Source: Sagittula stellata E-37 (GTDB lineage Bacteria; Pseudomonadota; Alphaproteobacteria; Rhodobacterales; Rhodobacteraceae). From it: a DNA stretch of 64,000 nucleotides. Location of the stretch: positions 62,001-126,000 of the forward strand of contig NZ_CP155731.1 in assembly GCF_039724765.1 (NCBI RefSeq), read 5' to 3'. The stretch's first letter is position 1. Each line of letters starts with the position of its first letter. Below, piece by piece: positions 46,499 through 64,000 of the stretch. The notes under the pieces are model-generated. The model ran no database searches. It had not been told where the DNA came from and worked only from the letters and a program-made list of their open reading frames with translations. The translations under genes and the position numbers were made by a program.

Positions 46499-46504
46499 CC
46501 TGAC

Positions 46505-46526
46505 GGGGTGGCCTGCGGGCCACCCC
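46505..46526 (+). terminator. Intercistronic hairpin after the iron-type binding-protein gene
   Basis: A 9-bp perfect stem (GGGGTGGCC / GGCCACCCC) with a TGCG tetraloop starts 7 bp after the stop codon and ends 17 bp before the next start. No T tract follows. It is likely a transcript stabiliser or attenuator. Confidence 0.55.
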
Positions 46527-46543
46527 CAACTTGCGGAGGTTGC

Positions 46544-47605: not shown

Positions 47606-48369
47606 GTCTCGCCCTCGACCGCGTCGGCGCCCGCTACGGACGGCGCCAGATCCTTGACGATGTCTCGACACCCATGATCGAAGGCGGCGCCCTGACCGCG
47701 CTGGTCGGGGCAAACGCGGCCGGCAAGTCCACCCTGTTCCGCCGCATCGCAGGGCAGTTGCATGGCCCCGGCACTGTCCGTCTGACCGGCGCGGGTGACG
47801 ACGACCTGCGCTACATGCCGCAGGACACCGCCATGAGCGCGGCGCTGACGGTCTACGAATCCATCATCCTCGCGCTGAAGCAGGGGGGCGGAAGCTGGCG
47901 CCTGTCTGCCGCGGAACTGGCCGCCGTCGACGATGTGCTGCGCCGCTTCAGCGTAGAGCATCTGGCCCACAGGCAGCTTCCGGAACTCTCGGGTGGCCAG
48001 CGACAGGCGGTCAGCGTCGCCCAGACTCTGGTCACGCGGCCCAAGGTCGTCCTGATGGACGAACCGACATCCGCGCTGGATCTTTACCGGCAGTACGAAG
48101 TGCTGGAAGCGCTCAACCGCTACGCGGAAGACACCGGCGCGGTGGTCATTCTCGCGCTGCACGACCTCAACCAGGTGATGCGCGCCTGCACGACGGTGAT
48201 GGCCCTCGCCGGGGGACGCATCCTTGCCACCGGACCGACGTTGGAGGTTCTGACACCGGACTTGATCGGCAAGCTCTACGGCATCGACACCCGGGTAGAG
48301 CGGTGTTCGCGCGGCTGTCCGATGATGATCGTCGACGGCCCGTCCCACACGGCAGCGACCGCGTCCTGA
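47599..48369 (+). CDS. ABC transporter ATP-binding protein, FepC/FecE type
   Basis: A 256-residue ATPase with Walker A GANAAGKST (a GPNGSGKST variant) near 36-44, signature LSGGQRQAVSVAQTL near 132, Walker B VVLMDEPTSALD and the His switch LALHDLNQVM. It pairs with the FecCD-type permease to drive metal-chelate uptake. The C-terminus carries a small cysteine pair (ERCSRGCPMM), unusual and of unknown use. It ends the operon. Confidence 0.93.
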   Translation: MVSLALDRVGARYGRRQILDDVSTPMIEGGALTALVGANAAGKSTLFRRIAGQLHGPGTVRLTGAGDDDLRYMPQDTAMSAALTVYESIILALKQGGGSWRLSAAELAAVDDVLRRFSVEHLAHRQLPELSGGQRQAVSVAQTLVTRPKVVLMDEPTSALDLYRQYEVLEALNRYAEDTGAVVILALHDLNQVMRACTTVMALAGGRILATGPTLEVLTPDLIGKLYGIDTRVERCSRGCPMMIVDGPSHTAATAS

Positions 48370-48735
48370 CGTTGTTGAGCGTCCCGTCCGGCCCGGCAAA
48401 GCCACCGGCATCGAGGATCGGGGAACCTTCGCGCCGGTCGGGACCGGACAGGGCCTTGGCTGGGGCTTGACCTAGAGGGCATGTGGCCGTGGGTCTCGGC
48501 CACATCGCAGGACACACCGCCGATCCGGTCGGCAAGTCCTTCGCGCCCTCCTCCAGCCGCTCGGCACGCTCTCCGACGTCCCGCATCGTCAGCAGATCGT
48601 CCTCGACCTCGCTGCGTTCGATTGGCACGGCCAGAAGGCAAAGCTGGATGACGTGGGCACGAAAGGGGCGTCAATCGCGCGGCCATGGGTCCCGCACCCA
48701 CCCAAGACGCCCGGGTATCGGTCAGGCAAGGACGG
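48370..48735. other. Intergenic region between convergent genes (366 bp)
   Basis: It lies between the ABC ATPase (ends 48369) and nagA (ends 48736), which converge. A 9-bp hairpin is at 48481-48505. Several reading frames stay open here; one on the plus strand (about 48540-48660) has a faintly protein-like composition, but I recognise no family. A decayed gene is possible. Confidence 0.5.
48481..48505. terminator. 9-bp hairpin between convergent operons
   Basis: ATGTGGCCG (48481-48489) pairs perfectly with CGGCCACAT (48497-48505) around a 7-nt loop. Position between convergent genes fits a terminator, but there is no clear T tract. Confidence 0.4.
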
Positions 48736-49842
48736 TCAGAGCGGGACGAAGCGTCCGTCCGCGTCCAGACGGATGCCGTCGAAACGGTCGCCGGACCGCA
48801 ACAGGCCCGCGTTCCCCGGTGTCCTGAGCAACCGTGCCGGCAGGCAGGTGGCCATGGCCAGCGCCCGGATGCGCGGCACACCGATCCCGTCCAACACCTT
48901 CAGCGCGGTCGGCATGTCGAGGTCGGCCCCGGCGAGCGTCCCGTCCTCCAGCGTCAGCCGACCGTCGCGGCGCAGCACGCGCCGTCCGTTCAGGACGTAC
49001 TCCGTGATGTCGGACCCCACCGGCGGCATGGCGTCTGTCACAAGGAACAGCGCCCCCTTCTCCTTGTGGGCGTTCAACGCGATGCGCAGCGCGGCGGTGT
49101 GGACGTGGATGCCGTCTGCGATGATCCCGGCAGACACGTCGGGCCGGTCCAGGATCGCCCCCACCATGCCCGGCGCGCGGTTGCCCATCTGGCTCATGGC
49201 GTTGAACAGGTGGGTGGCGCAGCGCACGCCCGCGTCGAAGTAGGCGCAGGCGGTCTCGTAGCTGCAATCGGAATGGCCCAGCGACAGGATCACCCCGGCG
49301 CGCAACAGCCGCCGCACCAGGTCGAGCGGCACCGACTCCGGCGCGATGGTCACCTTCAGGTTCGGCAATCGGGCGGCGGCGTCGGCCAGCACTTCGGCGT
49401 CGGCCTCTGTCATCGGCCTGATCAGGGCAGGATCGTGTGCGCCCTTGCGGGCCAGCGACAGGTGCGGCCCTTCAAGGTGCAACCCGACGATGCCAGGAAC
49501 GGCCTGCGCCACGGCCTGCGCCACGGCGTCGATGGCGGCGCGCACCTTGTCGGGCGTGTCGGTGATAAGCGTCGGCAAGATGTGCGTGGTGCCGGTGCGG
49601 GCGTGCGCCTCCGCGATGGTGCGCAGTCCTTCGACAGTGGTCTCTTCGTTGAACAGAACGCCGCCGCCGCCATTGACCTGCAGGTCCACGAAACCGGGCA
49701 GGATCGTGCCATCGAGGCGCTCGGCCTCCGGCGCGTCCTTCAGGTGTACGATGGCCCTGAGCCGCCCGTCCTCTACCGCCAGCGCGTGTTCGGTCAGGTG
49801 GCGGACGCCGTCGAAAATGTCGGGGGCATGCAGGTAGCGCAT
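48736..49842 (-). CDS. nagA: N-acetylglucosamine-6-phosphate deacetylase
   Basis: A 368-residue NagA of the amidohydrolase superfamily that converts GlcNAc-6-P to GlcN-6-P and acetate. The first metal motif is the NagA-type DLQVNGGGGVLF rather than HxH. Metal and substrate residues appear in LEGPHLS, LGHSDC, ATHLFNAM and the catalytic Asp in VTDAMPPVG. The start shares one base with the stop of the SIS gene (TGATG). It is the last gene of a leftward amino-sugar operon. Confidence 0.95.
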   Translation of the reverse strand: MRYLHAPDIFDGVRHLTEHALAVEDGRLRAIVHLKDAPEAERLDGTILPGFVDLQVNGGGGVLFNEETTVEGLRTIAEAHARTGTTHILPTLITDTPDKVRAAIDAVAQAVAQAVPGIVGLHLEGPHLSLARKGAHDPALIRPMTEADAEVLADAAARLPNLKVTIAPESVPLDLVRRLLRAGVILSLGHSDCSYETACAYFDAGVRCATHLFNAMSQMGNRAPGMVGAILDRPDVSAGIIADGIHVHTAALRIALNAHKEKGALFLVTDAMPPVGSDITEYVLNGRRVLRRDGRLTLEDGTLAGADLDMPTALKVLDGIGVPRIRALAMATCLPARLLRTPGNAGLLRSGDRFDGIRLDADGRFVPL

Positions 49843-50867
49843 CACGTGGTCTCCGTCACCTTGCGCAGGTGGCGCGGCGCATCCGGGTTCACCCCGCGCG
49901 CCACGGCAACCTGTTCCACCATCGCATAGAACGACGCGATCAGCGAGATCGGGTCGGTCAGCGGATGTCCCGTGCGCACCGCAGGCAGCGCCGTTGCGGT
50001 AGTGGCCTTGCGCGAGGTGGTGAACACCTTGGCGCCCTTGGCGGCCACCTGCTCCGCCACGTCGATCAGCGCGCTCTGGGCCGCGTCCTGCACAGCCAGC
50101 GCGATCACCGGGAAACCCCGCTCGACGATGCTGACCGGACCGTGCAGCACCTCCGCCGAGGAATAGCTTTCGGCATGAAGCTGGCACGTCTCCTTGAACT
50201 TCAGCGCCGCCTCGTTCGAGAAGGCAAAGACCGGCCCGCGCCCGAGGCAATAGAGCGAGTCTGTCGTCTGCAACTCTGCGGCAAGCGGCGACCAGTCGGC
50301 GGCAACGGCATCGGCCAGGGCCTGCGGCAAGCCATGGATGGCGGCCCTCAGCAGGTCGTCCTGCACCAGTTCCGCCAGCAGCCAGACGCCCGCGATCGCC
50401 GAGTTCACGAAAGTCTTCGTGGCCGCGACCGACAGCTCGGGCCCGGCGTGCAGCGCAAGCGCGTGGTCCGAAACCTCTGCCAGCCGCGAGTCGAGGTGGT
50501 TCGTCAGCCCGACCGTCAGCGCGCCCTCCTCCTGCATCATCCGCACCATGGCGACGATGTCCGGGCTCATCCCCGATTGCGAGACGGCAAGGCAGGCGGC
50601 GCCCTTCACCTTCAGCCGCGCGCCGTAGATCGACGCGACAGACGGCCCGACAGAGGCAACGGGCAAACCGGCCAAGATCTCCGCCACGTATTTGAAGTAG
50701 GTCGCGGCATGGTCCGACGACCCCCGCGCCACGGTGACGAAGAACGCCGGATCGCGCGCGCGCAGCGCCTCGGCCGCGCCCCGGATCGCGTCGCCACCAT
50801 GGGTCAGCAGCCGCTCCACCGCGTCGGGGATTTCCAGCACTTCGCGCCGCATGTGGGTTTCGGTCAT
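49842..50867 (-). CDS. SIS-domain glucosamine-6-phosphate deaminase/isomerase (NagB-II / AgaS-like)
   Basis: A 341-residue protein with two SIS domains, like the isomerase half of GlmS without the glutaminase. The first SIS (about 35-165) has VARGSSDHAATYFKY and SVSQSGMSPDIVA-type phosphate-loop serines (AVSQSGMS). The second (about 195-330) has CLGRGPVFAFSNEAALKFKE and the HGPVSIV loop. In gamma- and alphaproteobacterial N-acetylhexosamine operons such proteins act as GlcN-6-P deaminase (NagB-II). It is coupled by overlap to nagA and to the GntR gene. Confidence 0.88.
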   Translation of the reverse strand: MTETHMRREVLEIPDAVERLLTHGGDAIRGAAEALRARDPAFFVTVARGSSDHAATYFKYVAEILAGLPVASVGPSVASIYGARLKVKGAACLAVSQSGMSPDIVAMVRMMQEEGALTVGLTNHLDSRLAEVSDHALALHAGPELSVAATKTFVNSAIAGVWLLAELVQDDLLRAAIHGLPQALADAVAADWSPLAAELQTTDSLYCLGRGPVFAFSNEAALKFKETCQLHAESYSSAEVLHGPVSIVERGFPVIALAVQDAAQSALIDVAEQVAAKGAKVFTTSRKATTATALPAVRTGHPLTDPISLIASFYAMVEQVAVARGVNPDAPRHLRKVTETT

Positions 50868-51628
50868 CGGTCTTCCTTCTGAAGGCGCAGTTGGGCGACG
50901 AAGGTATAGGCATCGCCGCGATAGAGGGATTGGGTGAATTCGCAGACCCGCCCGGAGGCAAGGCTGGAGGTCCGTTCGATCCGCAGCCCGGCGCTTCCGG
51001 GCGCCAGGTCCAGAAGCGCGGCGTCCGGCCCGTCGACGATGACGGCGGTGATCTTCTGCAACGCCACCACCGGGCGCGTGCCATGGGCGTCGAGCACGGC
51101 GTAAAGCGACTGGGTGACCTCCAGCGGGTTCGGCAGGATGTCGGTCGGAAGCGAGGCGCGCTCGATCGCCATGGGCGCCCCGTCGGCCAGCCGAAGCCGC
51201 GCGATGCGGGCGACGGAATCGCCGTCCTTCAGCGAAAGCGCGTCCACCTCTTCCGGGGTCGGCATGAAGAACCCGCGCTCCAGCCATTGTACGGTGACGC
51301 TCATGCCGCGGCGGGCCATGTCCTCGGTAAACGAGGTGAGGCGCGACAGGGTCTGGTTCACCTTCGCCGGTGTCGAGGCCACGAAAGAGCCGGACCCCTG
51401 CCGCTGCACGATCCGGCCCTCGTCCACCAGCGACTGGATCGCCTTGCGCACGGTGACGCGGCTGAACTCCGTGATCGTGGCGATCTCGCGCTCGGGCGGC
51501 AGCGGGCTGCCCGGGGCCAGAAGCCCGCCGTCCACACCTTCGGACAGGCGGTTGCGCAGTTGCAGATAGCGCGGGCCGGCCTCGGGCCTGTACCAGTCGT
51601 GCGGCTTCAGGAAGTCGACCACGCTCAT
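50864..51628 (-). CDS. GntR-family regulator with UTRA domain (NagR/NagQ-like)
   Basis: A 254-residue regulator: N-terminal winged helix (about 18-85; PPEREIATITEFSRVTVRKAIQSL) and C-terminal UTRA ligand domain (about 105-245). UTRA proteins near nag genes sense GlcNAc-6-P or GlcN-6-P. It lies inside the leftward amino-sugar operon, overlapping both neighbours by 4 bp. GGTATT-repeat elements in the nagK/murQ divergent region are its probable operators. Confidence 0.92.
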   Translation of the reverse strand: MSVVDFLKPHDWYRPEAGPRYLQLRNRLSEGVDGGLLAPGSPLPPEREIATITEFSRVTVRKAIQSLVDEGRIVQRQGSGSFVASTPAKVNQTLSRLTSFTEDMARRGMSVTVQWLERGFFMPTPEEVDALSLKDGDSVARIARLRLADGAPMAIERASLPTDILPNPLEVTQSLYAVLDAHGTRPVVALQKITAVIVDGPDAALLDLAPGSAGLRIERTSSLASGRVCEFTQSLYRGDAYTFVAQLRLQKEDR

Positions 51629-52500
51629 GCCGGGACCCTCCGGGCCAGCGCCAGCGCCCCGTCCAGCGCACTGCCCTTGGGCGGGATCAGCACCATGTCG
51701 TCGAGGTAGCGCGCGTAATGCACCCCCACCCCGCCGGTCAGGCACAACGGTTCGTCCGCGCGGTGCCCCAACCCGTCGAGCGCAAACCGCAGGAACGTCG
51801 CGCCCTGCCACATCAGCGACAGACCCGCGCTGTCCCCGGCCTTCGCGGCCTCCACGATGCGCGGGGCGTAGGCTGCATAATCATGCGCAAGCGCGCGGCG
51901 GCCAAACGCGACAAGACCCGGCGGCCCGCCCAGCTCTTCCAGCACGGCGCGCATCAGCGGCGACTCCGCCACCAGCCCGTCGCTGACGTGCAGGGCCAGC
52001 TTCATAAGCTCGTGTCCCAGCCATGCGCCCGACGCCTGATCCGACAACTGGAACCCCCAGCCGCCGACGCTGCGCGATGCATCCCCGGCCTGACGGGCAA
52101 AGAAACTGCCGGTGCCGATGGCGGCCAGCGACCCGTCCTGCGGCCCCAGCGCCCCGGCCAGCATGGTGTCGCTGTCCTCCGTCACGGTGACCCGGCGCAG
52201 CGGCAGAGCCCTGGCCACACGGTCGCCCACCTCGGCCGAGATCACCCCGGCCAGCCCCGCGTGCGCGGGCATCCCGGCCAGATCGGCAACCGCTACGCCC
52301 GCACCCGCGCAGGCGATGTCGAGCGCCGCGCACAGGTGGCGAATCGTGCCGTCGAAATCGGTGGTGGCATTGGCGGGTCCGCCCTCGCCCCTGCCAAGAA
52401 TGACGCCGGAGGCATCGCAGATCGCGACCCGACAGCCGCTTCCGCCGCCGTCCAGTCCGATCGCAAAGGGTGTGGGTGCCTCCGTCATGGCGAAAGGCAT
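51625..52500 (-). CDS. BadF/BadG-type amino-sugar kinase (GlcNAc/MurNAc kinase-like)
   Basis: A 291-residue kinase of the ASKHA fold, BadF/BadG/BcrA/BcrD ATPase family. The phosphate-1 loop GLDGGGSGCRVA (about 15-26), the second phosphate loop AAIGTGSFFA (about 130-139) and adenosine motif CLTGGVGVHYA (about 250) are present. Family members phosphorylate GlcNAc, glucosamine or, as with MurK of Clostridium, both GlcNAc and MurNAc. Being divergent from the MurQ-like gene makes a MurNAc-active kinase attractive. The start could also be Met5 (52488). Confidence 0.85.
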   Translation of the reverse strand: MPFAMTEAPTPFAIGLDGGGSGCRVAICDASGVILGRGEGGPANATTDFDGTIRHLCAALDIACAGAGVAVADLAGMPAHAGLAGVISAEVGDRVARALPLRRVTVTEDSDTMLAGALGPQDGSLAAIGTGSFFARQAGDASRSVGGWGFQLSDQASGAWLGHELMKLALHVSDGLVAESPLMRAVLEELGGPPGLVAFGRRALAHDYAAYAPRIVEAAKAGDSAGLSLMWQGATFLRFALDGLGHRADEPLCLTGGVGVHYARYLDDMVLIPPKGSALDGALALARRVPA

Positions 52501-52530
52501 ACCATGAGGCCGCACACATGCAAACACCAA

Positions 52531-52545
52531 AACAATACCAATACC
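52531..52545 (-). promoter_or_regulatory. Candidate amino-sugar regulator operator, kinase side
   Basis: On the minus strand this reads GGTATTGGTATTGTT: two direct GGTATT units. The AACAATACC core is exactly inverted as GGTATTGTT at 52594-52602. I remember GGTATT-repeat sites as the type used by NagQ/GntR regulators. It lies 31-45 bp before the kinase start. Confidence 0.5.
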
Positions 52546-52584
52546 CGCATTTTTGTACCCGATGACACCAATAGAAAAGAGCTC

Positions 52585-52612
52585 TTGCTTAAAGGTATTG
52601 TTTAGGTATGGT
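52585..52612 (+). promoter_or_regulatory. Candidate murQ promoter with embedded operator
   Basis: TTGCTT (52585-52590) and TATGGT (52607-52612), 16 bp apart, form a sigma70-like promoter. GGTATTGTTTAGGTATGG (52594-52611) fills the spacer and the -10, with two GGTAT units. A bound GntR protein would block RNA polymerase. Confidence 0.45.
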
Positions 52613-52651
52613 CTTGGGAAACTGCCAACCGACTCACCGAAGGCTGCCGCC

Positions 52652-53518
52652 ATGACCTCCATCGACGCCCTGCGCCCTGATGCGGCCTTGCGCACCATGC
52701 TGGATGCGCAGACCGAGGCCGCGCGCGCCGTCGGGAGCGCCCTGCCCGGGATCGAAGAGGCCGCGCACCGTATGGCGGAAACCCTGCGCAACGGCGGCAC
52801 CGTGGTCTATGCCGCCGCCGGAAGCTCTGGCCTGATGGCGCTGGCGGACGCCTGCGAACTGCCCGGCACCTTTGGAATCGACCCGGCCCGCGTGCGCATT
52901 GCCATGGCGGGCGGCATTCCCACCGACGCGCGGATGCCCGGCCATACCGAAGACGACACCGCCGAAGCGGAGGCCGTGGCCGCCAGCATGACACCCGGCG
53001 ACCTGCTGATCGCCATCTCCGCCTCCGGCACCACGCCGCAGGCTCTGGCGCTGACGCGGGCCGCTCAGGCGAAGGGCATCGCCACGGTCGGCGTCGCCAA
53101 CACGCCCGGAAGCGCGCTCCTGGCCGTTGCCGACACCGCCATCGCGCTGCCCACACCGCCCGAGGTGGTCGAGGGCTCCACCCGGCTTGGCGCCGGCACC
53201 GCGCAGAAGATCGCGCTCAACATGGTCTCCACCCTCGCAGGGGTCCTGCTGGGTCATGTCCACGACGGCATGATGGTCAACCTGCGGCCCGACAACATCA
53301 AGCTGCGCGCCCGGGCCGAGACCATCGTCGCCCGCATCGCAGGGGTGCAGCCCGACGCCGCCCGCACTGCGCTGGAGGCCACCGCATACGACGTGAAACC
53401 GGCCGTCCTCGTGGCGCTGGGGCACGATCCCGAAGACGCCCGCCGCATCCTGGATGCCCACGGGCAAAACCTGCGGCAGGCGCTGCAGGCCGAAACACCC
53501 AAAACCAGAAGAGCCTGA
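52652..53518 (+). CDS. murQ: MurQ-like N-acetylmuramic acid 6-phosphate etherase (SIS domain)
   Basis: A 288-residue SIS-domain protein of the MurQ family, which splits MurNAc-6-P into GlcNAc-6-P and D-lactate. The sugar-phosphate loop VVYAAAGSSGLMALADACELPGTFG (split around residues 50-74) and the second signature VVEGSTRLGAGTAQKIALN (about 171-189) are close to canonical. ISASGTTPQAL is the phosphate-binding serine loop. The ATG at 52652 fits the candidate promoter, but in-frame codons before it (LPTDSPKAAA) also resemble the MurQ N-terminus; a TTG at 52598 is possible. It is the first gene of an operon of more than 11 kb. Confidence 0.88.
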   Translation: MTSIDALRPDAALRTMLDAQTEAARAVGSALPGIEEAAHRMAETLRNGGTVVYAAAGSSGLMALADACELPGTFGIDPARVRIAMAGGIPTDARMPGHTEDDTAEAEAVAASMTPGDLLIAISASGTTPQALALTRAAQAKGIATVGVANTPGSALLAVADTAIALPTPPEVVEGSTRLGAGTAQKIALNMVSTLAGVLLGHVHDGMMVNLRPDNIKLRARAETIVARIAGVQPDAARTALEATAYDVKPAVLVALGHDPEDARRILDAHGQNLRQALQAETPKTRRA

Positions 53519-53551
53519 CACAAGGCCTTTTCCAACAAGGAGAGAAAGACA

Positions 53552-54799
53552 ATGACGAAGACACTCAAAGGCGCCCTCCTGCTCAGCGTGCTCGGCACCG
53601 GCGCATGGGCGCAGGACGTCACGCTGACCATCGAGAGCTGGCGCAACGACGACCTGAAGATCTGGCAGGACGAAATCATCCCGGCCTTCGAGGCCGAGCA
53701 TCCCGGCATCAAGCTGAACTTCACCCCCTCCGCCCCGGCGGAATATAACGCCATCCTGAACTCCAAGCTGGATGCGGGATCGGCCGGCGACATCATCACC
53801 TGCCGCCCCTTCGACGCGTCGCTTGCGCTGTACGAAGGCGGCAAGCTGGCCGACCTGTCGGACCTCGAAGGCATGTCGAACTTCTCCGACGTGGCCAAAT
53901 CCGCGTGGGTCACCGACGACGGCGAACATCCCTTCTGCGTGCCGATGGGCGCCGTGATCCACGGCTTCATCTACAACAAGGAGATCTTCGAGGAGCTGGG
54001 TCTGGAAGAGCCGACCACCGTGGCGGAATTCTACGACGTCCTGGACAAGATCAAGGAAGACGGCACCTACACCCCGATGGCGATGGGCACCAACGACCAG
54101 TGGGAAGCCGCGACCATGGGCTACCAGAACATCGGCCCGACCTACTGGAAGGGTGAGGAAGGCCGCACTGCGCTGATCTCGGGCGACGCAAAGCTGAACG
54201 ACCCGCAGTTCACCGAGGTCTTCACCGAACTGGCGAAGTGGGGCGACTACCTCGGCGACGGTTTCGAGGCGCAGACCTACCCCGACAGCCAGAACGTCTT
54301 TACCCTTGGCCGCGCCGCGATCTATCCGGCGGGTTCGTGGGAAGTGTCGGGCTTCAACAACCTCGCCGACTTCGAGATGGGGGCCTTCCCGCCGCCGGTC
54401 GCAGCCGAAGGCGACACCTGCTACATCTCCGACCACACCGACATCGGCATCGGCATGAACGCCGCGACCGAACACCCGGAAGAGGCCAAGACCTTCCTGA
54501 ACTGGGTGGCGTCGCCGGAATTCTCCAAGATCTTCGCCAACGCGCTGCCGGGCTTCTACCCGCTGGCCTCCGAACCGGTAGAGATCACCGACCCGCTGGC
54601 GGCAGAGTTCGCAAGCTGGCGCGACCAGTGCGAAAGCACGATCCGGTCCTCCTACCAGATCCTGTCGCGCGGCACGCCGAACCTCGAAAACGAGCTGTGG
54701 AACGCCTCCGCCGCCGTGATCAAGGGTACGGAGACGCCGGAAGAGGCGGCCAACCGTCTCCAGGAAGGCCTGGCCTCCTGGTACGAGAACCAGCAGTAA
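53552..54799 (+). CDS. ABC transporter substrate-binding protein, carbohydrate family 1
   Basis: A 415-residue periplasmic sugar-binding protein with a signal peptide (1-20, GAWA) and a type-1 extracellular solute-binding fold: QDVTLTIESWRNDD start, AVIHGFIYNKEIFEELGLEEP hinge region (split here as two segments), and ending NRLQEGLASWYENQQ. The ligand, by context, is an amino sugar such as GlcNAc, MurNAc or a disaccharide. RBS AAGGAGAG precedes the ATG. A GC-rich hairpin follows. Confidence 0.93.
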   Translation: MTKTLKGALLLSVLGTGAWAQDVTLTIESWRNDDLKIWQDEIIPAFEAEHPGIKLNFTPSAPAEYNAILNSKLDAGSAGDIITCRPFDASLALYEGGKLADLSDLEGMSNFSDVAKSAWVTDDGEHPFCVPMGAVIHGFIYNKEIFEELGLEEPTTVAEFYDVLDKIKEDGTYTPMAMGTNDQWEAATMGYQNIGPTYWKGEEGRTALISGDAKLNDPQFTEVFTELAKWGDYLGDGFEAQTYPDSQNVFTLGRAAIYPAGSWEVSGFNNLADFEMGAFPPPVAAEGDTCYISDHTDIGIGMNAATEHPEEAKTFLNWVASPEFSKIFANALPGFYPLASEPVEITDPLAAEFASWRDQCESTIRSSYQILSRGTPNLENELWNASAAVIKGTETPEEAANRLQEGLASWYENQQ

Positions 54800-54808
54800 G
54801 CTGGCCCC

Positions 54809-54832
54809 GGCCGGGCGCGACACCGCCCGGCC
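54809..54832 (+). terminator. Intercistronic hairpin after the sugar-binding protein gene
   Basis: GGCCGGGC (54809-54816) and GCCCGGCC (54825-54832) form an 8-bp stem 9 bp after the stop codon. No T tract. It parallels the hairpins after other binding-protein genes. Confidence 0.55.
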
Positions 54833-54894
54833 ACCTCCGACCCGCCGGGCGCCTGACGCCCGATCCTTTCCCCCGACAGACGAGGTGAAAGCCC

Positions 54895-55803
54895 ATGGGC
54901 CGCATCCGATGGCATGTCGTCGTGTTCCTCGCCCCAGCGGTGCTGGTCTACACGGCCGTGATGATCTTCCCGCTGTTCGACACCCTGCGCCTGGCGCTGT
55001 TCAACGCCGAGGACAAGGCGCGCATCTTCGTCGGGCTCGCCAATTTCAAGCGCCTGTTCCTTGACCCGATCTGGTCCGAACAGTTCTGGAACGCGCTGGC
55101 GAACAACTTCTGGTTCTTCCTGATCCACATGCTGGTGCAGAACCCCATCGGCATTGCGCTGGCGGCCCTGCTGTCCTCGCCGAAACTGCGGTTCGCCGCG
55201 CTTTATCGCACCGCGATCTTCGTCCCCACCATCCTCAGCTTCGTCATCGTCGGCTTCGCGTGGAAGCTGATCCTCTCGCCGATCTGGGGCATCGCTCCGT
55301 CGATGCTGGACGCCGTCGGGCTGAAGTCGCTGTTCGCACCGTGGCTGGGCAAGGAGGAATACGCCCTGACCACGCTGGCGCTGATCTCCGTCTGGCAGTT
55401 CGTCGGCATCCCGATGATGCTGATCTACGCCGCCCTCCTGTCGATCCCCGAAGAGATCCTGGAGGCGGGCGAGGTCGACGGCATCACCGGCCTCTCGGCC
55501 TTCTGGAAGATCAAGCTGCCGCTGATCCTGCCCTCGATCGGGATCATCTCGATCCTGACATTCGTCGGCAACTTCAACGCCTTCGACCTGATCTATGCCG
55601 CACAGGGCGCACTTGCCGGGCCGGACTTCTCCACCGACATCCTTGGCACCTTCATGTACCGCACCTTCTTCGGATTCCAGTTGCAGCTTGGCGATCCCTA
55701 CATGGGGTCCGCCATCGCCTCCGCGATGTTCGGGATCATCCTGATCGGGGTCTGCATCTACCTGTTCGGCATCCAGCGGCGCCTGCGCCACTACCAGTTC
55801 TGA
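54895..55803 (+). CDS. ABC sugar transporter permease, MalF/UgpA type
   Basis: A 302-residue permease with six helices. The N-terminal PAVLVYTAVMIFPLFDTLRLALF helix (split at residue 25) and the EAA coupling loop IPEEILEAGEVDGITG (about 185-200) are typical of carbohydrate uptake permeases. It forms a heterodimer with the next gene product, 10 bp downstream. Confidence 0.94.
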   Translation: MGRIRWHVVVFLAPAVLVYTAVMIFPLFDTLRLALFNAEDKARIFVGLANFKRLFLDPIWSEQFWNALANNFWFFLIHMLVQNPIGIALAALLSSPKLRFAALYRTAIFVPTILSFVIVGFAWKLILSPIWGIAPSMLDAVGLKSLFAPWLGKEEYALTTLALISVWQFVGIPMMLIYAALLSIPEEILEAGEVDGITGLSAFWKIKLPLILPSIGIISILTFVGNFNAFDLIYAAQGALAGPDFSTDILGTFMYRTFFGFQLQLGDPYMGSAIASAMFGIILIGVCIYLFGIQRRLRHYQF

Positions 55804-55813
55804 GGGGAAGGTC

Positions 55814-56650
55814 ATGTCCACACGCCGCATCACCCCGAACCTGTTCGCCATGCACGGCGCGCTGATCCTCTACGTTCTGATCGCGCTGTTTCCGGTCTTC
55901 GTGATCGTCGTCAACAGCTTCAAGAGCCGCCGCGCCATTTTCCGCGAACCGCTGGCGCTGCCCAACGGCGACAGCTTCTCGCTGGTGGGTTACGAGACGG
56001 TGCTCAAGCAGGGCGACTTCTTCCTCTACTTCCAGAACTCCTTTGTCGTCACAGTGGCGTCGCTGTTCTTCATCCTGCTTTTCGGGGCCATGGCCGCCTT
56101 CGCGCTGGCCGAGTACCGCTTCAAGGGCAGCACGGTCATGGCGCTTTACCTCGCGCTGGGGATCATGATCCCGATCCGCATCGGCACCGTCGCCATCCTG
56201 GAAATGATGGTCTCCACCGGGCTGGTGAACACGCTTTGGGCGCTGATCCTCGTCTATACCGCGCAGGGGCTGCCGCTCGCCGTCTTCATCCTGTCGGAGT
56301 TCATGAAGGGCGTTTCCGACGACCTCAAGAACGCGGGCCGGATCGACGGGCTCAGCGAATACGCGATCTTCTTCCGCCTCGTGCTGCCGCTGGTCCGTCC
56401 GGCGCTCGCCACCGTGGCGGTGTTCAACATGATCCCGATCTGGAACGACCTCTGGTTCCCGCTCATCCTCGCCCCGGCGGAGGAGGTGAAGACCCTCACG
56501 CTCGGCAGCCAGGTCTTCATCGGGCAGTTCGTGACCGACTGGAACGCGGTGCTCTCCGCGCTTTCGATGGCGATCCTGCCGGTCATGGTCCTTTACGTCA
56601 TCTTCTCGCGGCAACTGATCCGCGGCATCACCTCAGGGGCCGTCAAATGA
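55814..56650 (+). CDS. ABC sugar transporter permease, MalG/UgpE type
   Basis: A 278-residue permease of the MalG group: N-terminal helix (13-35), conserved FKSRRAIF element after it, and the EAA loop VSDDLKNAGRIDGLSE (about 171-186). The C-terminus FSRQLIRGITSGAVK is the usual ending. Its stop overlaps the oxidoreductase start by 4 bp. Confidence 0.95.
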   Translation: MSTRRITPNLFAMHGALILYVLIALFPVFVIVVNSFKSRRAIFREPLALPNGDSFSLVGYETVLKQGDFFLYFQNSFVVTVASLFFILLFGAMAAFALAEYRFKGSTVMALYLALGIMIPIRIGTVAILEMMVSTGLVNTLWALILVYTAQGLPLAVFILSEFMKGVSDDLKNAGRIDGLSEYAIFFRLVLPLVRPALATVAVFNMIPIWNDLWFPLILAPAEEVKTLTLGSQVFIGQFVTDWNAVLSALSMAILPVMVLYVIFSRQLIRGITSGAVK

Positions 56651-57665
56651 AGGTACTCATCGCGGGCCTCGGCAACATGGGTTTCTCCCATACCATGGCC
56701 CATCACGCACACCCGGACAGCGAGATCGTCGGCATCGTCAAACGCTCGCCCGACGCCGATCCCCGCCTGCCCTACCCGGTGTTCACCGACTTCCACGCCG
56801 CCCTCGCGGACACGCAGCCGGATCTCGTGGTCGTCGCCACCTACACCGACACGCACGCCGAATACGCCATCGCCGCGATGGAGGCGGGCGCCCATGTCTT
56901 CGTCGAGAAACCGCTGGCCCTGACCGTCACCGACGCCCGCCGCGTGACCGAAACGGCGACCCGCCTGAACCGCAAGCTGGTCGTGGGCTACATCCTGCGC
57001 CACCACCCGTCATGGGTGCGGCTGATCGACGAGGCGAAGGCGCTTGGCGGCCCTTACGTCTTCCGACTGAACCTCAACCAGCAGTCAGAGGGCGCGACGT
57101 GGGACACCCACAAGGCGCTGATGCAGACGACCTCCCCCATCGTGGACTGCGGCGTGCACTACGTCGACGTGATGTGTCAGATCTGCGGATCGCGGCCCGT
57201 GCAGGTCACCGGCATCGGCCTGCGCCTCTCGGACGAAATCCCCGAGGACATGTACAACTACGGCCAGCTTCAGGTCCGGTTCGAGGATGGCTCCGTCGGC
57301 TGGTATGAAGCCGGCTGGGGCCCGATGATGTCCGAAACCGCCTTCTTCGTGAAGGACGTGGTCAGCCCCAACGGCGCCGTGTCGATCAAGGACGCCGACA
57401 AGGGCGACAGCGATTCCGTCGACGGACACACCCGCGTCGGCGCGCTTCTGGTGCACCGGCCCGGCGACGACAGGCTGATCGACCTGCCCGACGAACCCGG
57501 CCACCAGCAGCTTTGCGATGCCGAACAGGCCTTCCTGATCGAGGCCATCCGGAACGACACCGATCTCACCCGCCACATGCAGGAGGCGGTGGACAGCCTT
57601 GCGATATGCCTTGCCGCCGACCTCTCCATCCGCACCGGCCAACCCGTCAGACCGGGAGACGTGAC

Positions 57666-57669
<4 letters not shown>
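56647..57669 (+). CDS. Gfo/Idh/MocA-family oxidoreductase
   Basis: A 340-residue NAD(P)-dependent sugar or inositol dehydrogenase-like protein. The Rossmann loop GLGNMGFSH is at 7-15, EKPLALTVTDA near 93-103 holds the catalytic lysine, and CGVHYVDVMCQ near 168-178 holds the substrate-site His/Asp. It lies between the permease and ATPase genes of the sugar transporter, overlapping both neighbours by 4 bp. It probably oxidises the imported sugar or sugar acid. It is not part of the canonical MurNAc route, so it may widen the sugar range of the locus. Confidence 0.9.
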
Positions 57670-58654
<985 letters not shown>

Positions 58655-58658
<4 letters not shown>

Positions 58659-59113
58659 CCCTGACGATCCGCCCCGCCACCCGCGCCGATCTTCCAACGC
58701 TCATCGCGCTCTATGCCGACGACGGACTGGGCAAGAACCGCGACGGGGGCGCGGTGGACGACGCCTACCTTCAGGCCTTCGAAGCAATCGACAAGGACCC
58801 CAACCACGTGCTTGCCGTGGGCGAAGAGGGGCAGGAAATCGTGGCCACCCTCCTCCTGTCCTTCCTCCCCGGCCTGTCGCGGCACGGCGCATGGCGCGCC
58901 CAGATCGAGGCGATGCGCGTCTCCTCCGCCCGGCGCGGTGAGGGCCTTGGCCGCAAGATGCTCGAATGGGCGGTTGCAGAAGCGAAACGCCGGAATTGTC
59001 GTCTCTTGCAGTTGACGTCCGACCGTCAAAGGGACGACGCTCATCGCTTCTACGAGCGTGCGGGCTTCACGCCCTCGCACCTCGGTTTCAAAATGACACT
59101 GGAGACAGAATGA
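58655..59113 (+). CDS. GNAT family N-acetyltransferase
   Basis: A 152-residue GNAT protein. The acetyl-CoA loop is RRGEGLGRKML near 94-104, preceded by the strand QIEAMRVSS. The conserved Tyr of AHRFYERAGF is near 134. The start is a GTG at 58655 that overlaps the ATPase stop (GTGA); no in-frame ATG nearby would keep motif structure. Lying inside an amino-sugar/peptide uptake operon, it may acetylate an amino sugar or a D-amino acid to detoxify or channel it. Substrate unknown. Confidence 0.88.
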
Positions 59114-60159
59114 CCAACTTCCCGGTCTTCGACGGCCACAACGATCTGGTGCTGCGCCTGTTGCGCGGCGACGTCACGGCGCAAGGGGTGGCCGAGGGCC
59201 TCGACAGCGGCCACATCGACAAGCCCCGCGCGGTCAAGGGCGGCTTCGGCGGCGGCTTCTTCGCGATCTTCGTCCCCTCCCCCGGCAACAAGGCCGTGCG
59301 CTACGAAGAGATGGTGAAGCCGGAATACGACATTCCCCTGCCCGACCCGGTGCCGGAGAACGAGGCGCTCGACTGGACGACTCGCGGCTTCGATGCGCTC
59401 GACGACCTCGCCGCGGCAGGCGCCGTGACGCTTTGCCGGACCGCCGACGACATCGCGGCCGCCCTGCCTAAGCCCGAAATGGCCGCCGTCGCCCACATCG
59501 AAGGCGCGGAGGCCGTCGACCGCGACTTTGCCCGCCTGCACGAATGGCACGCGCGGGGCCTGCGCTCCCTCGGGCCGGTCTGGAGCAGGCCCACCGTCTG
59601 GGGCGACGGCGTCCCCTTCCGCTTCCCCTCGTCGCCCGACACGGGCCCCGGCCTGACCGGCGCCGGCAAAGCGCTGGTGCGCGAGTGCAACGCGTTGAAG
59701 ATCATGATCGACCTGTCGCACCTGAACGAGAAGGGCATGGACGACGTGGCCGCGATCAGCGACGCGCCGCTGGTCGCGACGCATTCCAACGCCCACGCCA
59801 TCTCGCCGCATGCCCGCAACCTCACCGACCGGCAGCTTCACATGATCCGTGAAAGTGACGGAATGGTGGGCATCAACTTCGCCAGCGCATTTCTCAGGCC
59901 CGACGGCCGCATGGAGTCGGACTTCGGGCTTGACATAATGCTCCGACATTTTGACCATTTGGTCGAAACCCTGGGCGAGGATCGCGTCGGCCTGGGATCG
60001 GACTTCGACGGCGCGCTTGTGCCCGACCCGATCCGCGACATCGCAGGGCTGCCCAATCTTCTGGCAGCGCTGAAGGACCACGGCGTCGACGACGATCTCA
60101 TGGCCAGGGTGACGCACCGGAACTGGTTGCGAGTCCTGCGCAAGACATGGAGCAACTGA
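59110..60159 (+). CDS. Membrane dipeptidase-like peptidase (M19, renal dipeptidase family)
   Basis: A 349-residue zinc dipeptidase of family M19. Metal ligands are His10-x-Asp12 (FDGHND), Glu131 (AHIEGAE), His204 (DLSHLN) and His225 (ATHSNAH), with Asp in GLGSDFDGA as a further site. There is no signal peptide, so it acts in the cytoplasm. M19 enzymes hydrolyse dipeptides, including those with a C-terminal D-residue. This suits peptides released from peptidoglycan stems. The ATG overlaps the GNAT stop (ATGA). It precedes a dipeptide ABC transporter by 42 bp. Confidence 0.92.
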   Translation: MTNFPVFDGHNDLVLRLLRGDVTAQGVAEGLDSGHIDKPRAVKGGFGGGFFAIFVPSPGNKAVRYEEMVKPEYDIPLPDPVPENEALDWTTRGFDALDDLAAAGAVTLCRTADDIAAALPKPEMAAVAHIEGAEAVDRDFARLHEWHARGLRSLGPVWSRPTVWGDGVPFRFPSSPDTGPGLTGAGKALVRECNALKIMIDLSHLNEKGMDDVAAISDAPLVATHSNAHAISPHARNLTDRQLHMIRESDGMVGINFASAFLRPDGRMESDFGLDIMLRHFDHLVETLGEDRVGLGSDFDGALVPDPIRDIAGLPNLLAALKDHGVDDDLMARVTHRNWLRVLRKTWSN

Positions 60160-60201
60160 CCGGTAACCAAGAACAAAGACAACAACAGGGAGTAAACTAA
60201 A

Positions 60202-61797
60202 ATGAAAACCAACTTCACGGCGGCCGTGGTGGCCGCGATCGTGGCCTTGGGCACAGCCGCCCCGGTCATGGCGGAAACCCCGCCGAACATGCTGGTGATC
60301 GCGAACCGCATCGACGACATCAAAACCTTCGATCCGGCGGAAAGCTTCGAGTTCGCGGGCGCCGACGTGTCGCGCAACGTCTACGAAAAGCTGGTGAACT
60401 TCGATCCGCTCGACCTCGACGCCGGCTACATGCCGCAGCTTGCCGAAAGCTGGGAGATCTCCGAAGACGGCAAGACCATCACCTTCACCATGGCCGAGGG
60501 GCACGTGTTCTCGTCCGGCAACCCGGTGACGGCCAAGGACGCGGAATTCTCGCTCCGCCGCGCGGTGCTGCTCGACAAGACGCCCTCGTTCATCCTGACG
60601 CAGTTCGGCTTTACCGCCGATAACGTCGAGGAGACCATCAAGGCGACCGACGACAAGACGCTCGTCCTGACCCTGGACAAGCCCTACGCGCTGTCCTTCG
60701 TGCTGAACTGCCTGACCGCCACCATCGGTGGCATCGTCGACATGGAAACCGCCATGGCCAACGAGGCCGACGGTGACATGGGCAGCGAATGGCTGCGCAC
60801 CAACACCTCAGGTTCCGGCCCCTACAAGGTCGTGGACTGGAAGCCGAACGAAAGCGTCCTGATGGACCTCAACCCCAACTATCACGGCGAGAAGCCGGCG
60901 ATGGAGCGGGTGATCGTCCAGCACATCCAGGAATCCGCCACCCAGCGGCTTCAGCTCGAACGCGGCGACATCGACGTTGCCCGCAACCTCTCGCCCGAGG
61001 ACGTGGCGGGCCTGGCCGATGTCGAGGGCGTCAAGGTCGTCGACGAACTGCGTGGCCGCCTGATGTACTGGTCCGCGAACCAGAAGGTCGAGATGCTGAC
61101 AGACCCGAAAGTGCTGGACGCGCTCAAGTACGCCGTCGACTACGACGGCATGTCCGGCTCCTTCCTGAATGGCCAGTACACCGTGCACCAGGCCTTCCTG
61201 CCGCTGACTTTCCTCGGCGCGCTGGAAGACAAGCCCTACAGCTTCGACATGGACGCCGCCAAGGCCGCCATGGCGGAATCCGGCTTCCCGGACTGCGGAC
61301 CGATCAAGATCTCCGTGCGCGACGCGCAGGAACGTCTGGATATCGCGCAATCGCTGCAGAACACCTGGGGCCAGCTCGGCTGCGACGTGGAACTGATCGT
61401 CGGCACCGGTGCGCAGACGCTCGACCGCTACCGCGCGCGCGAGCATGACATCTACCTCGGCGCCTGGGGCCCGGACTATCCGGACCCGAACACCAACGCC
61501 GGCACCTTCGCCCTGAACCCCGACAACGCCGACGAGGCCGGCAACACCGGCTACCTCGCATGGCGGAACGCCTGGGATCCGGGCGCGATGAATGACGAGA
61601 CTCTGGCCGCCGTCGTCGAGAACGACACCGACAAACGCCGCGAGATGTATCTCGAACTTCAGCGCGAGCACCAGAAGGTCAGCCCCTTCGGCGTGATGTT
61701 CCAGCAGATCGAACAGAACGGCATGGGCGCGAGCGTCGAGAACTTCGTCGCAGGCGGCGCGACCACCGCGGTCTCTTACTGGGTCATCACCAAGTAA
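60202..61797 (+). CDS. ABC transporter substrate-binding protein, family 5 (dipeptide type)
   Basis: A 531-residue periplasmic binding protein of the DppA family with a signal peptide (1-23, APVMA). PPNMLVIANRIDDIKTFDPA opens the mature part, and conserved TFTMAEGHVFSSGNPVTAKD and SPFGVMFQQIEQ elements follow. RBS GGGAGT precedes the ATG. Unlike the other binding-protein genes here, no intercistronic hairpin follows; its stop shares a base with the permease start. Ligands are probably short peptides, including muropeptide-derived ones. Confidence 0.94.
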   Translation: MKTNFTAAVVAAIVALGTAAPVMAETPPNMLVIANRIDDIKTFDPAESFEFAGADVSRNVYEKLVNFDPLDLDAGYMPQLAESWEISEDGKTITFTMAEGHVFSSGNPVTAKDAEFSLRRAVLLDKTPSFILTQFGFTADNVEETIKATDDKTLVLTLDKPYALSFVLNCLTATIGGIVDMETAMANEADGDMGSEWLRTNTSGSGPYKVVDWKPNESVLMDLNPNYHGEKPAMERVIVQHIQESATQRLQLERGDIDVARNLSPEDVAGLADVEGVKVVDELRGRLMYWSANQKVEMLTDPKVLDALKYAVDYDGMSGSFLNGQYTVHQAFLPLTFLGALEDKPYSFDMDAAKAAMAESGFPDCGPIKISVRDAQERLDIAQSLQNTWGQLGCDVELIVGTGAQTLDRYRAREHDIYLGAWGPDYPDPNTNAGTFALNPDNADEAGNTGYLAWRNAWDPGAMNDETLAAVVENDTDKRREMYLELQREHQKVSPFGVMFQQIEQNGMGASVENFVAGGATTAVSYWVITK

Positions 61798-62852
61798 TGA
61801 CCGACACCAGCACTGGAGAAGGACGGCAGATGCCGTCCTTCCCCCCATGGGCCAAGAAGACCCTGGGGACCGTAGCCACCGTTGCCGCGACCATCCTCGG
61901 TCTGCTCTTCGTGACCTTCATGATCGGCCGGGTGATGCCGATCGACCCCGTTCTGGCCGTCATCGGCGAACGGGCGACACAGGCGCAATACAACGCCACC
62001 TATCTCGAACTCGGACTCGACAAGCCGCTGCTGGTGCAGTTCGGCATCTACGTGAACGACGTGCTGCACGGCGACCTCGGACGGTCGATCCGCACCGGGC
62101 AGGAAGTCACCACCGACATCGCCCGCGTCTTTCCCGCGACACTGGAACTGGCCACACTCGGCACGCTGCTCGGCGTCGTGCTCGGCGTGCCGCTGGGGGT
62201 CATCGCCGCCGTCAAGCGCGGAAGCTGGATCGACCAGCTCGCCCGGTTCGTCGGCCTCATCGGGTATTCCATGCCGATCTTCTGGCTGGGCCTCGTCGGC
62301 CTTCTGGTGTTCTACGGCATCCTGGGCTGGGTCGCGGGCCCCGGACGGCTCGGCATCTTCTACCAGGGCATCGTCGAACCGATCACCGGCATGCTGCTGA
62401 TCGACTCGGCGCTACGCGGCGAATGGACCGTGTTCAAGGACGCCTTTTCGCACATCATCCTGCCCGCCTCGCTGCTGGGCTACTACTCCATGGCCTACAT
62501 CAGCCGCATGACCCGATCCTTCATGCTGGAGCAACTGAACTCCGAATACGTGACCACCGCCCGCGTGAAGGGCCTGTCCGAACGCAAGGTGATCTGGGGC
62601 CATGCCTTCCGCAACATCCGCATCCAGCTGGTGACGGTGATCGCTCTGGCCTACGCCAATCTGCTCGAAGGCTCCGTGCTGACGGAAATCATCTTCGCCT
62701 GGCCCGGCATCGGCCAGTACATCACCACCTCGCTGCTCGCCAACGACATGAACTCCGTGCTCGGCGGCACCATCGTGATCGGCACCATCTTCGTGGGCAT
62801 CAACATCTTCTCCGACCTGCTCTACCGCTTCTTCGATCCGAGGGCCAAATGA
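61797..62852 (+). CDS. ABC transporter permease, DppB type
   Basis: A 351-residue permease, longer than usual because of a 17-residue polar N-terminal extension before the first helix and an inserted loop near GWVAGPGRLGIFYQG. The EAA loop reads SEYVTTARVKGLSERK. The start ATG at 61797 overlaps the preceding TAA by one base. An alternative start at Met11 (61827) would shorten the polar extension. Confidence 0.93.
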   Translation: MTDTSTGEGRQMPSFPPWAKKTLGTVATVAATILGLLFVTFMIGRVMPIDPVLAVIGERATQAQYNATYLELGLDKPLLVQFGIYVNDVLHGDLGRSIRTGQEVTTDIARVFPATLELATLGTLLGVVLGVPLGVIAAVKRGSWIDQLARFVGLIGYSMPIFWLGLVGLLVFYGILGWVAGPGRLGIFYQGIVEPITGMLLIDSALRGEWTVFKDAFSHIILPASLLGYYSMAYISRMTRSFMLEQLNSEYVTTARVKGLSERKVIWGHAFRNIRIQLVTVIALAYANLLEGSVLTEIIFAWPGIGQYITTSLLANDMNSVLGGTIVIGTIFVGINIFSDLLYRFFDPRAK

Positions 62853-63760
62853 CCGACACGACCCTCCGCGCATGGCTCCTGAGCGACGAGCCGACCTCCC
62901 GCCGGCAGGCCCGCTTCTCGTCGTGGTACAAGGGCTGGCTGACCTTCCGGTCGAACCCGCTGGCGATGCTGGGCCTGATCGTGCTGGTGGTGCTGATCCT
63001 CGCCGCGATCTTCGCACCGCTGCTGGCGACGGACGATCCCTTTGCCCAGGACCTCGGCGCGCGCCTGCTTGCACCCGGAGAGCAGGGCCACATCTTCGGC
63101 ACCGACAGCCTGGGCCGCGACATCTATTCCCGCCTGCTCTACGGCGCGCGGATCTCGCTCTACATCGTGCTGCTCGTCGCCATGGTGGCGCCGCTCGTCG
63201 GGCTGATCATGGGCACCGTTTCGGGCTATGCGGGCGGCTGGGTGGACGTGATCCTGATGCGGATCACCGACATCTTCCTCGCCTTCCCGCGGCTGATCCT
63301 CGCGCTGGCTTTCGTCGCCGCCCTCGGCGCAGGGATCGAGAACGCGGTGCTGGCGATCTCGCTCACCGCCTGGCCGCCCTACGCCCGCATTGCCCGGGCC
63401 GAAACGCTGACCATCCGCAACTCCGACTACATCCACGCCGTCCGCCTGCAGGGCGCGGGACCGTTCCGCATCGTCACCAAACACATCTGGCCGCTCTGCA
63501 TCTCGTCGCTGGTGATCCGGGTGACGCTCGACATGGCGGGCATCATCCTGACCGCCGCAGGTCTGGGCTTCCTCGGGCTCGGCGCGCAGCCGCCCTCGCC
63601 GGAATGGGGGGCGATGATCTCCGAAGGGCGCAAGTACATCCTCGATTACTGGTGGGTCGCCACGATCCCCGGCATCGCGATCTTCGCCATCTCGCTCGCC
63701 TTCAACCTGCTGGGCGACGGCCTGCGCGACGTGCTCGACCCGAAGGAGGGCAACACATGA
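62849..63760 (+). CDS. ABC transporter permease, DppC type
   Basis: A 303-residue second permease: N-terminal helix about 37-60, HIFGTDSLGRDIYSRLLYGA near 87-106 (DppC hallmark), EAA loop YIHAVRLQGAGP. Start and stop overlap adjacent genes by 4 bp, so the dipeptide operon is tightly coupled. Confidence 0.95.
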   Translation: MTDTTLRAWLLSDEPTSRRQARFSSWYKGWLTFRSNPLAMLGLIVLVVLILAAIFAPLLATDDPFAQDLGARLLAPGEQGHIFGTDSLGRDIYSRLLYGARISLYIVLLVAMVAPLVGLIMGTVSGYAGGWVDVILMRITDIFLAFPRLILALAFVAALGAGIENAVLAISLTAWPPYARIARAETLTIRNSDYIHAVRLQGAGPFRIVTKHIWPLCISSLVIRVTLDMAGIILTAAGLGFLGLGAQPPSPEWGAMISEGRKYILDYWWVATIPGIAIFAISLAFNLLGDGLRDVLDPKEGNT

Positions 63761-64000
63761 CCGAAGCGCCCCTGCTCGACGTCGAAAACCTCTGGGTGAA
63801 GTTCCACACCCGCACAGGCATCGTCGATGCCGTGCGCGGCATCTCCTTCACGCTCGGCCGCGAACGGCTGGGCATCGTCGGCGAAAGCGGCTCGGGCAAG
63901 TCGATGACCGGCCGCGCCGTCCTGCGTCTGATCCACCCGCCGGGCCAGGTGACCGCCGACAAGCTGCAGGTGCACGGCGAGGACGTCATGACCATGCCGG
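63757..64000 (+). CDS. ABC transporter ATP-binding protein, DppD type (N-terminal part)
   Basis: The first 81 residues of a dipeptide-transporter ATPase are visible before the window ends. Walker A is GESGSGKS (about 42-49), after a DppD-type start LDVENLWVKFHT. The start overlaps the permease stop by 4 bp. The remaining domains and the expected DppF gene lie beyond the window. Confidence 0.92.
   Translation, partial: MTEAPLLDVENLWVKFHTRTGIVDAVRGISFTLGRERLGIVGESGSGKSMTGRAVLRLIHPPGQVTADKLQVHGEDVMTMP

Follow-up and report, generated by a model that had tools for sequence, protein, structure and literature searches.

The occurrence of genes for the use of amino sugars and of dipeptides in one closely packed locus of Sagittula stellata E-37 raises the question of whether a single pathway or two joined ones are encoded there. 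The locus lies in the stretch analysed here (the window, 64,000 nucleotides), which corresponds to positions 62001-126000 of the 183-kb contig C3 (NZ_CP155731.1) in a genome of 5.29 Mb. C3 encodes a Rep3-type plasmid initiator and on that basis appears plasmid-like. The locus comprises 17 genes in two divergent operons, and an earlier note on this DNA had viewed them as a combined salvage locus for the sugars and stem peptides of peptidoglycan. The genes and roles named in it have been confirmed by profile and domain matches. The explanation favoured in the current analysis, which we consider fairly probable, is that two nutrient modules which otherwise stand alone were fused on a plasmid, the regulator of an amino-sugar block thereby capturing a dipeptide operon, plausibly for peptidoglycan debris. 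The earlier interpretation is half right, since two ordinary modules and one unusual fusion are involved.

The two modules meet at 58639..58660, as located by a switch in homology: DNA similarity to the sugar locus of Sagittula salina stops at about 58639 and similarity to its peptide locus starts at about 58660. The GTG start of a GNAT acetyltransferase gene (58655..59113, PF00583) overlaps the stop of the sugar ABC ATPase gene (57666..58658, UgpC/MalK type; NF008653 432.8 bits, cut-off 432) by 4 nt, and the letters at the join are identical in the window, Sagittula sp. P11 and Sagittula sp. MA-2. In these closest named relatives the fused locus is found on plasmids of about 110 kb. The same 17 genes are kept there in the same order, and the arrangement is therefore not a product of chance. 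Between the window and P11 the synonymous divergence (dS) is 0.17-0.41 and the ratio of nonsynonymous to synonymous divergence (dN/dS) is 0.024-0.215 over the 17 genes, with the highest values in murQ (0.215), the GNAT gene (0.143) and the DppD gene (0.130). These ratios place every one of the 17 genes under purifying selection.

Four Sagittula genomes have been compared (that of E-37, G198, G199 and G200) and the fused state is seen in two of them, E-37 and G200, the stretch of the latter matching the P11 plasmid letter for letter along the 14 kb that were compared. In G199, whose contig is also that of the Sagittula salina record, the sugar block lies on contig C39 and the peptide block on C81, and G198 has neither module at the cut-offs used. 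A contig scan with the MurQ-like protein gave 439 relatives, the best 80 of which were taken for locus comparison. Behind the sugar block no M19, GNAT or Dpp gene is found in any of these 80 loci, 67 of the 74 ATPase-bearing ones having at least 2 kb there, and the fusion is equally absent from the 31 related peptide loci described below. Outside three Sagittula strains, which carry them on plasmids or on a contig of plasmid-like character, the two modules have not been found fused; among 359 plasmid records an M19 protein with more than 60% identity occurs in two, which are the two Sagittula plasmids. Each half is ordinary and it is the exact join of the two that is unusual, as the earlier note had suspected of the coupling.

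The right operon, on the plus strand, has 13 genes, namely murQ, five genes of the sugar-importer section including one for a Gfo/Idh enzyme, the GNAT gene, an M19 gene and five Dpp genes. It ends 1369 bases past the window edge, and behind dppF lies a gene of convergent orientation, which in the relatives is purU. The gaps between its genes are, in order, 33, 95, 10, -4, -4, -4, -4, 42, 32, -4, -4 and -4 nt. Those of the left operon, on the minus strand, are -4, -4 and -1 nt, and the start codons of the two operons are 163 nt apart. Nine of the 16 gene steps are overlaps of 4 nt, which bears out the tight coupling of the two halves reported before.

The sugar module is made up of the left operon and the genes from murQ to the ATPase. 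The left operon encodes the N-acetylglucosamine-6-phosphate (GlcNAc-6-P) deacetylase NagA (48736..49842; TIGR00221 261 bits, cut-off 226), a NagB-II-like glucosamine-6-phosphate deaminase with two SIS domains (49842..50867; PDB 3fj1 431 bits), a GntR/UTRA regulator (50864..51628; PF00392 and PF07702) and a NagK-like amino-sugar kinase of BadF type (51625..52488; PF01869). The right operon begins with a MurQ-like N-acetylmuramic acid-6-phosphate (MurNAc-6-P) etherase (52652..53518), followed by a nagT-like sugar-binding protein (53552..54799; PF01547), two sugar ABC permeases (54895..55803 and 55814..56650), a Gfo/Idh/MocA oxidoreductase (56647..57669; PF01408 and PF22725) and the ATPase. With a gene counted as present at a match of at least 30% identity and 60 bits, all ten sugar genes occur in 62 of the 80 related loci; among the remainder some are cut by contig ends and five are devoid of Gfo/Idh. 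The same gene order is seen in Ruegeria TM1040 and Sinorhizobium meliloti Ak57, and Paracoccus AK26 shares it except for the kinase gene, which is missing there. The sugar half, a block already known and widespread, is not new. The Ak57 locus (L095) has the same ten-gene divergon, including murQ and Gfo/Idh, but is flanked by insertion sequence elements and RND efflux genes, with no dipeptidase or Dpp genes in its 24.8-kb stretch.

In Ruegeria pomeroyi the GlcNAc transporter nagTUVW corresponds to SPO1835 and SPO1837-1839, and a mutant in SPO1839 is reported to show growth lowered by 78% and GlcNAc drawdown by 93% (PMC10130141). The order binding protein, permease, permease, one gene, ATPase in the sugar block agrees with these locus numbers, the missing number, SPO1836, falling where the Gfo/Idh gene stands, and the binding protein of the window would be the counterpart of SPO1839. 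Ruegeria pomeroyi belongs to the same taxonomic order as Sagittula; the available part of the published account differs from the present locus in that it concerns GlcNAc and names no peptide genes. Because the importer gene order matches that of nagTUVW, GlcNAc appears to be the best-supported substrate of the sugar importer. This bears on the view of the earlier note, a complete peptidoglycan salvage locus with MurNAc as the main sugar. Its gene set is present as described, but the block is widespread, the substrate tested for the matching importer is GlcNAc and not MurNAc (PMC10130141), and the kinase and the MurQ-like protein are the least conserved of the five proteins measured (at 95%, 34 of 287 positions in the kinase and 61 of 288 in the MurQ-like protein). 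We regard MurNAc as the main sugar as improbable.

The kinase had been described as MurK-like. It is of BadF type, but GlcNAc kinases head both its curated and its PDB matches (1zc6, a GlcNAc kinase, 105 bits; 8zo3, a MurNAc/GlcNAc kinase, 42 bits). For the MurQ-like protein several features agree with the description as an etherase. The protein has the SIS fold of MurQ, scores above the cut-off of the NCBIfam subfamily PRK05441 (277 against 168 bits), and MurQ structures rank first in comparisons with its predicted model (pLDDT, predicted local distance difference test, 92). E69 and E100 are invariant in 12 sequences and in 85 of 85 block members, and correspond to the two catalytic glutamates of MurQ, Glu83 and Glu114 in the E. 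coli enzyme. Two features depart from MurQ: the equivalog cut-off of TIGR00274 is missed (179.5 against 302 bits) and the conserved arginine of the GTSGR loop, present in seven of seven compared MurQs outside the block, is replaced in all 85 block members, by leucine in 83 and phenylalanine in two. The protein is the sole strong MurQ match of the genome, the second match scoring 28 bits, and AnmK and one GH3 gene are encoded on contig C1. A probable etherase of a distinct subfamily without the conserved arginine is suggested by these features. Departure from the etherase reaction altogether, in favour of another phosphosugar or of regulation of the kinase in the manner of GKRP, would fit the missed cut-off, the loop motif, which is AGSS[GA][LF]M in all 84 block members compared and AGTSGR in each of three AnmK-linked MurQs, and the report that NagS, a relative of MurQ, acts as a dehydratase on GlcNAc-6-P (PMC12680351); with the fold and both glutamates retained, we give this alternative a low probability. 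A MurQ with AGTSGR is found in Chelatococcus sp. CO-6 (L160), where GntR and BadF genes stand divergent to MurQ, SIS and NagA genes, with ABC genes of opp/dpp type beside this group, as in the present locus; the difference is that the peptide ABC genes lie on the other side and no M19 or sugar ABC gene is annotated in the 14.9-kb stretch.

The Gfo/Idh enzyme, left unexplained by the earlier note, is not a stray part but a near-constant member of the sugar block, standing between permease and ATPase in 69 of the 74 ATPase-bearing loci. It is the best conserved of the five proteins (150 of 340 positions at 95%, followed by SIS with 107 of 341 and NagA with 91 of 368), and the sugar permeases are higher by identity. 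It is absent from five loci (L016, L034, L039, L064 and L090), and these natural deletions should be useful for working out its role. Sequence and fold comparisons pin down no substrate; among the structure matches are the folds of NAD-dependent sulfoquinovosidases and of the RgNanOx/YjhC type. RgNanOx and YjhC are known for a redox-neutral NAD-dependent activity on 2,7-anhydro-sialic acid. A very speculative reading, to which we attach little probability, is that the enzyme could open an imported anhydro or glycosidic amino sugar before the kinase acts, by NAD-dependent redox-neutral chemistry like that of RgNanOx/YjhC or of the sulfoquinovosidases, and that the block would be a self-contained route for peptidoglycan sugars needing neither AnmK nor NagZ, which in Sagittula captured a matching peptide route under the same regulator. 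The substrates conceivable on this reading, equally doubtful, would be 1,6-anhydro-MurNAc, 1,6-anhydro-GlcNAc or a GlcNAc disaccharide.

The peptide module begins with the GNAT gene, followed by an M19 dipeptidase (59110..60159; PF01244 304 bits, above cut-off and over the whole domain; PDB 3ly0 and 3fdg 417-419 bits), a dipeptide-type binding protein of the SBP_bac_5 family (60202..61797; PF00496), a DppB-type permease (61830..62852; NF008161), a DppC-type permease whose best NCBIfam match is a D,D-dipeptide permease (62849..63760; NF007376 300 bits, under the cut-off of 434), a DppD-type ATPase (63757..64000 in the window, ending at 64620 in extended coordinates) and DppF (64617-65369 in extended coordinates, outside the window). 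The importer scores under the NCBIfam equivalog cut-offs (DppA 100 against 1005 bits, DppB 261 against 590 bits) and is assigned to the peptide/nickel type only. A full-length YejB match (535 bits) is encoded elsewhere, on contig C1. In Agrobacterium a YejB-type importer carries muropeptides; YejBEF-YepA resembles the present system as an ABC import route, one that serves the recycling of peptidoglycan and whose conservation in Rhodobacterales is reported, and differs in taking up whole muropeptides (PMC9790009).

Of 198 family genomes, 50 gave a match to the DppA marker at an E-value of 1e-150, and in 31 of these, that of E-37 included, the identity was 61% or more. The peptide loci compared are those of the 30 other genomes at this level and the S. 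salina locus L152, 19 genomes below 61% being left out. M19 directly precedes dppABCDF in 29 of the 31, the exceptions being L183, with M19 after DppF, and L168, where the contig ends without M19. Its identity to the window protein is 54-79% in the 28 of these 29 loci that have an unbroken gene. Of the 31 loci, 15 have a LysR gene in divergent orientation. The GNAT gene, another part left unexplained by the earlier note, is found in three of these separate loci, always directly before M19, and is for this reason assigned to the peptide module. In S. salina dppF is followed after 1 nt by a PF01177 racemase gene, which is in keeping with the favoured fusion. NagA, BadF, MurQ and the sugar-binding protein were found in none of the 31 fetched stretches. 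The peptide half occurs across the family as an operon of its own. The E. coli operon ddpXABCDF also combines a dipeptidase with a dipeptide ABC importer; its DdpX is of VanX type, in place of M19, and it has no sugar genes. A standalone peptide operon of G184 (L173) has an internal TAG stop in its M19 gene.

The sugar marker occurs in 45 of the 198 genomes, the peptide marker at 61% or more in 31, and both in 15. With the E-37 genome set aside, the two are found together in 14 of 197 (odds ratio 4.0, P 0.0014) and, with the looser peptide marker of all 50 genomes, in 19 of 197 (odds ratio 3.1, P 0.0026), kinship being ignored in both. The two modules co-occur more than expected, and in G001 the sugar marker lies about 15 kb from the peptide operon on the same contig, outside the fetched stretch. 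This proximity and the co-occurrence argue against the view that a GlcNAc utilisation block serving chitin or necromass merely had a dipeptide operon land behind it by chance on a plasmid, the two being co-transcribed with no shared substrate logic. That view draws on the match of the importer gene order to a GlcNAc importer, on the two modules normally standing apart, on the many Opp/Dpp-type permeases of the genome (25 matches to the YejB model, some being fragments of one gene) and on there being one join event only. Set against these, the join and the reading frames have been kept in three strains at the dS given above, with dN/dS of at most 0.22, and we consider a chance landing rather unlikely.

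Regulatory signals lie in the divergent promoter region (52489..52651), which has direct repeats of GGTATT type; these are conserved in a consensus built from 79 aligned regions, that of the window among them. The consensus has a site AAGGTATT..At.GGTATt near the murQ start and a mirrored copy near the kinase start, and the same repeat was obtained by a second method. The window retains the right copy, AAAGGTATTGTTTAGGTAT (52591..52609, plus strand), and its left copy is degenerate. This operator-like site occurs once in the 5.29-Mb genome at up to three mismatches, the reversed control giving none, and there is therefore no second copy at that level for the peptide half. A hairpin of -42 kcal/mol is predicted in the 95-nt gap between binding protein and permease, without shuffle control. 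GntR would bind at 52591-52609 and, as the peptide module stands in register behind the sugar ATPase in the Sagittula lineage, should govern both modules.

Under the favoured fusion the sugar module would take up amino sugar, mainly in the form of GlcNAc and perhaps also of MurNAc, for phosphorylation by the BadF kinase; the MurQ-like enzyme would strip lactate from MurNAc-6-P, and NagA and then NagB-II would carry the product on to fructose-6-phosphate. The GNAT-M19-DppABCDF module would import dipeptides, probably including L,D-dipeptides, for cleavage in the cytoplasm. Amino sugars would induce dipeptide salvage, the likely purpose being to scavenge debris in which sugars and peptides occur together, as they do in peptidoglycan; debris, substrates and inducer alike are inferred.

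A number of points weigh against this explanation. The kinase scores under the NagK equivalog cut-off (NF046058, 145 against 370 bits), and its label is accordingly kept at NagK-like; the deaminase is under that of NagB-II (NF046059, 290 against 430 bits), and the MurQ-like protein misses TIGR00274 as given above. D-lactate dehydrogenase, NagZ, amidase and LD-peptidase are not among the 17 genes, and an Asp/Glu/hydantoin racemase, found in two of the 31 peptide loci, is not present in the window. The orthology proposed with nagTUVW is drawn from gene order and locus numbers. In PMC10130141 the GlcNAc transporter is found, among the strains compared, only in close relatives of R. pomeroyi, unlike the widespread sugar block, and a pooled screen missed it, the mutants being enriched, for which the authors blame cross-feeding. 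The excess of co-occurrence is uncorrected for phylogeny; in small and large genome strata P is 0.074 and 0.050 (stratified permutation 0.004), for 120 genomes with listed size in which M19-positive ones are over-represented and which are not a random draw. The fusion in the three strains is a single event, and the peptide module stands apart in S. salina and 30 other loci, so that neither module needs the other. Co-transcription of the two halves, which are probably switched on together, is a prediction.

The locus would offer a clear-cut case from nature in which an exact, plasmid-borne fusion has placed two catabolic modules under a single regulator, and as a sister species retains the unfused state, cause and effect can be tested within one genus. 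The analysis also points to a MurQ subfamily without the conserved arginine and to a well conserved Gfo/Idh enzyme, both in a common amino-sugar locus of marine and rhizobial bacteria.

Some further arrangements were observed around these genes. An iron- or cobalamin-type ABC importer adjoins nagA on the other strand (45365-48369). MA-2 and P11 have seven extra genes between the iron-type ABC genes and nagA, which encode another ABC importer of peptide type, accompanied by two binding proteins, as well as a lyase and a LysR regulator; the window does not have them at the corresponding place (48369-48736). A contig filed as actinobacterial (L086, Nocardioides marinus DP1N28-1 record) carries the sugar block of the alphaproteobacteria, its permeases reaching 89% identity, reflecting either a recent transfer or a contaminated assembly. 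A Sphingobium plasmid (L161:1038-12837) encodes a BadF kinase, D-lactate dehydrogenase, NagA, SIS, MurQ, GntR, a permease and dacB, and is a compact candidate for true MurNAc use. In Ruegeria TM1040 the N-acetyl-D-Glu genes DgcN/DgcA (L094:27666-28792) lie about 8 kb behind the sugar block. In Paracoccus AK26 (L096:11810-17078) a convergent peptide-type ABC operon stands directly behind the sugar block, a further and independent case of the two import types lying close together.

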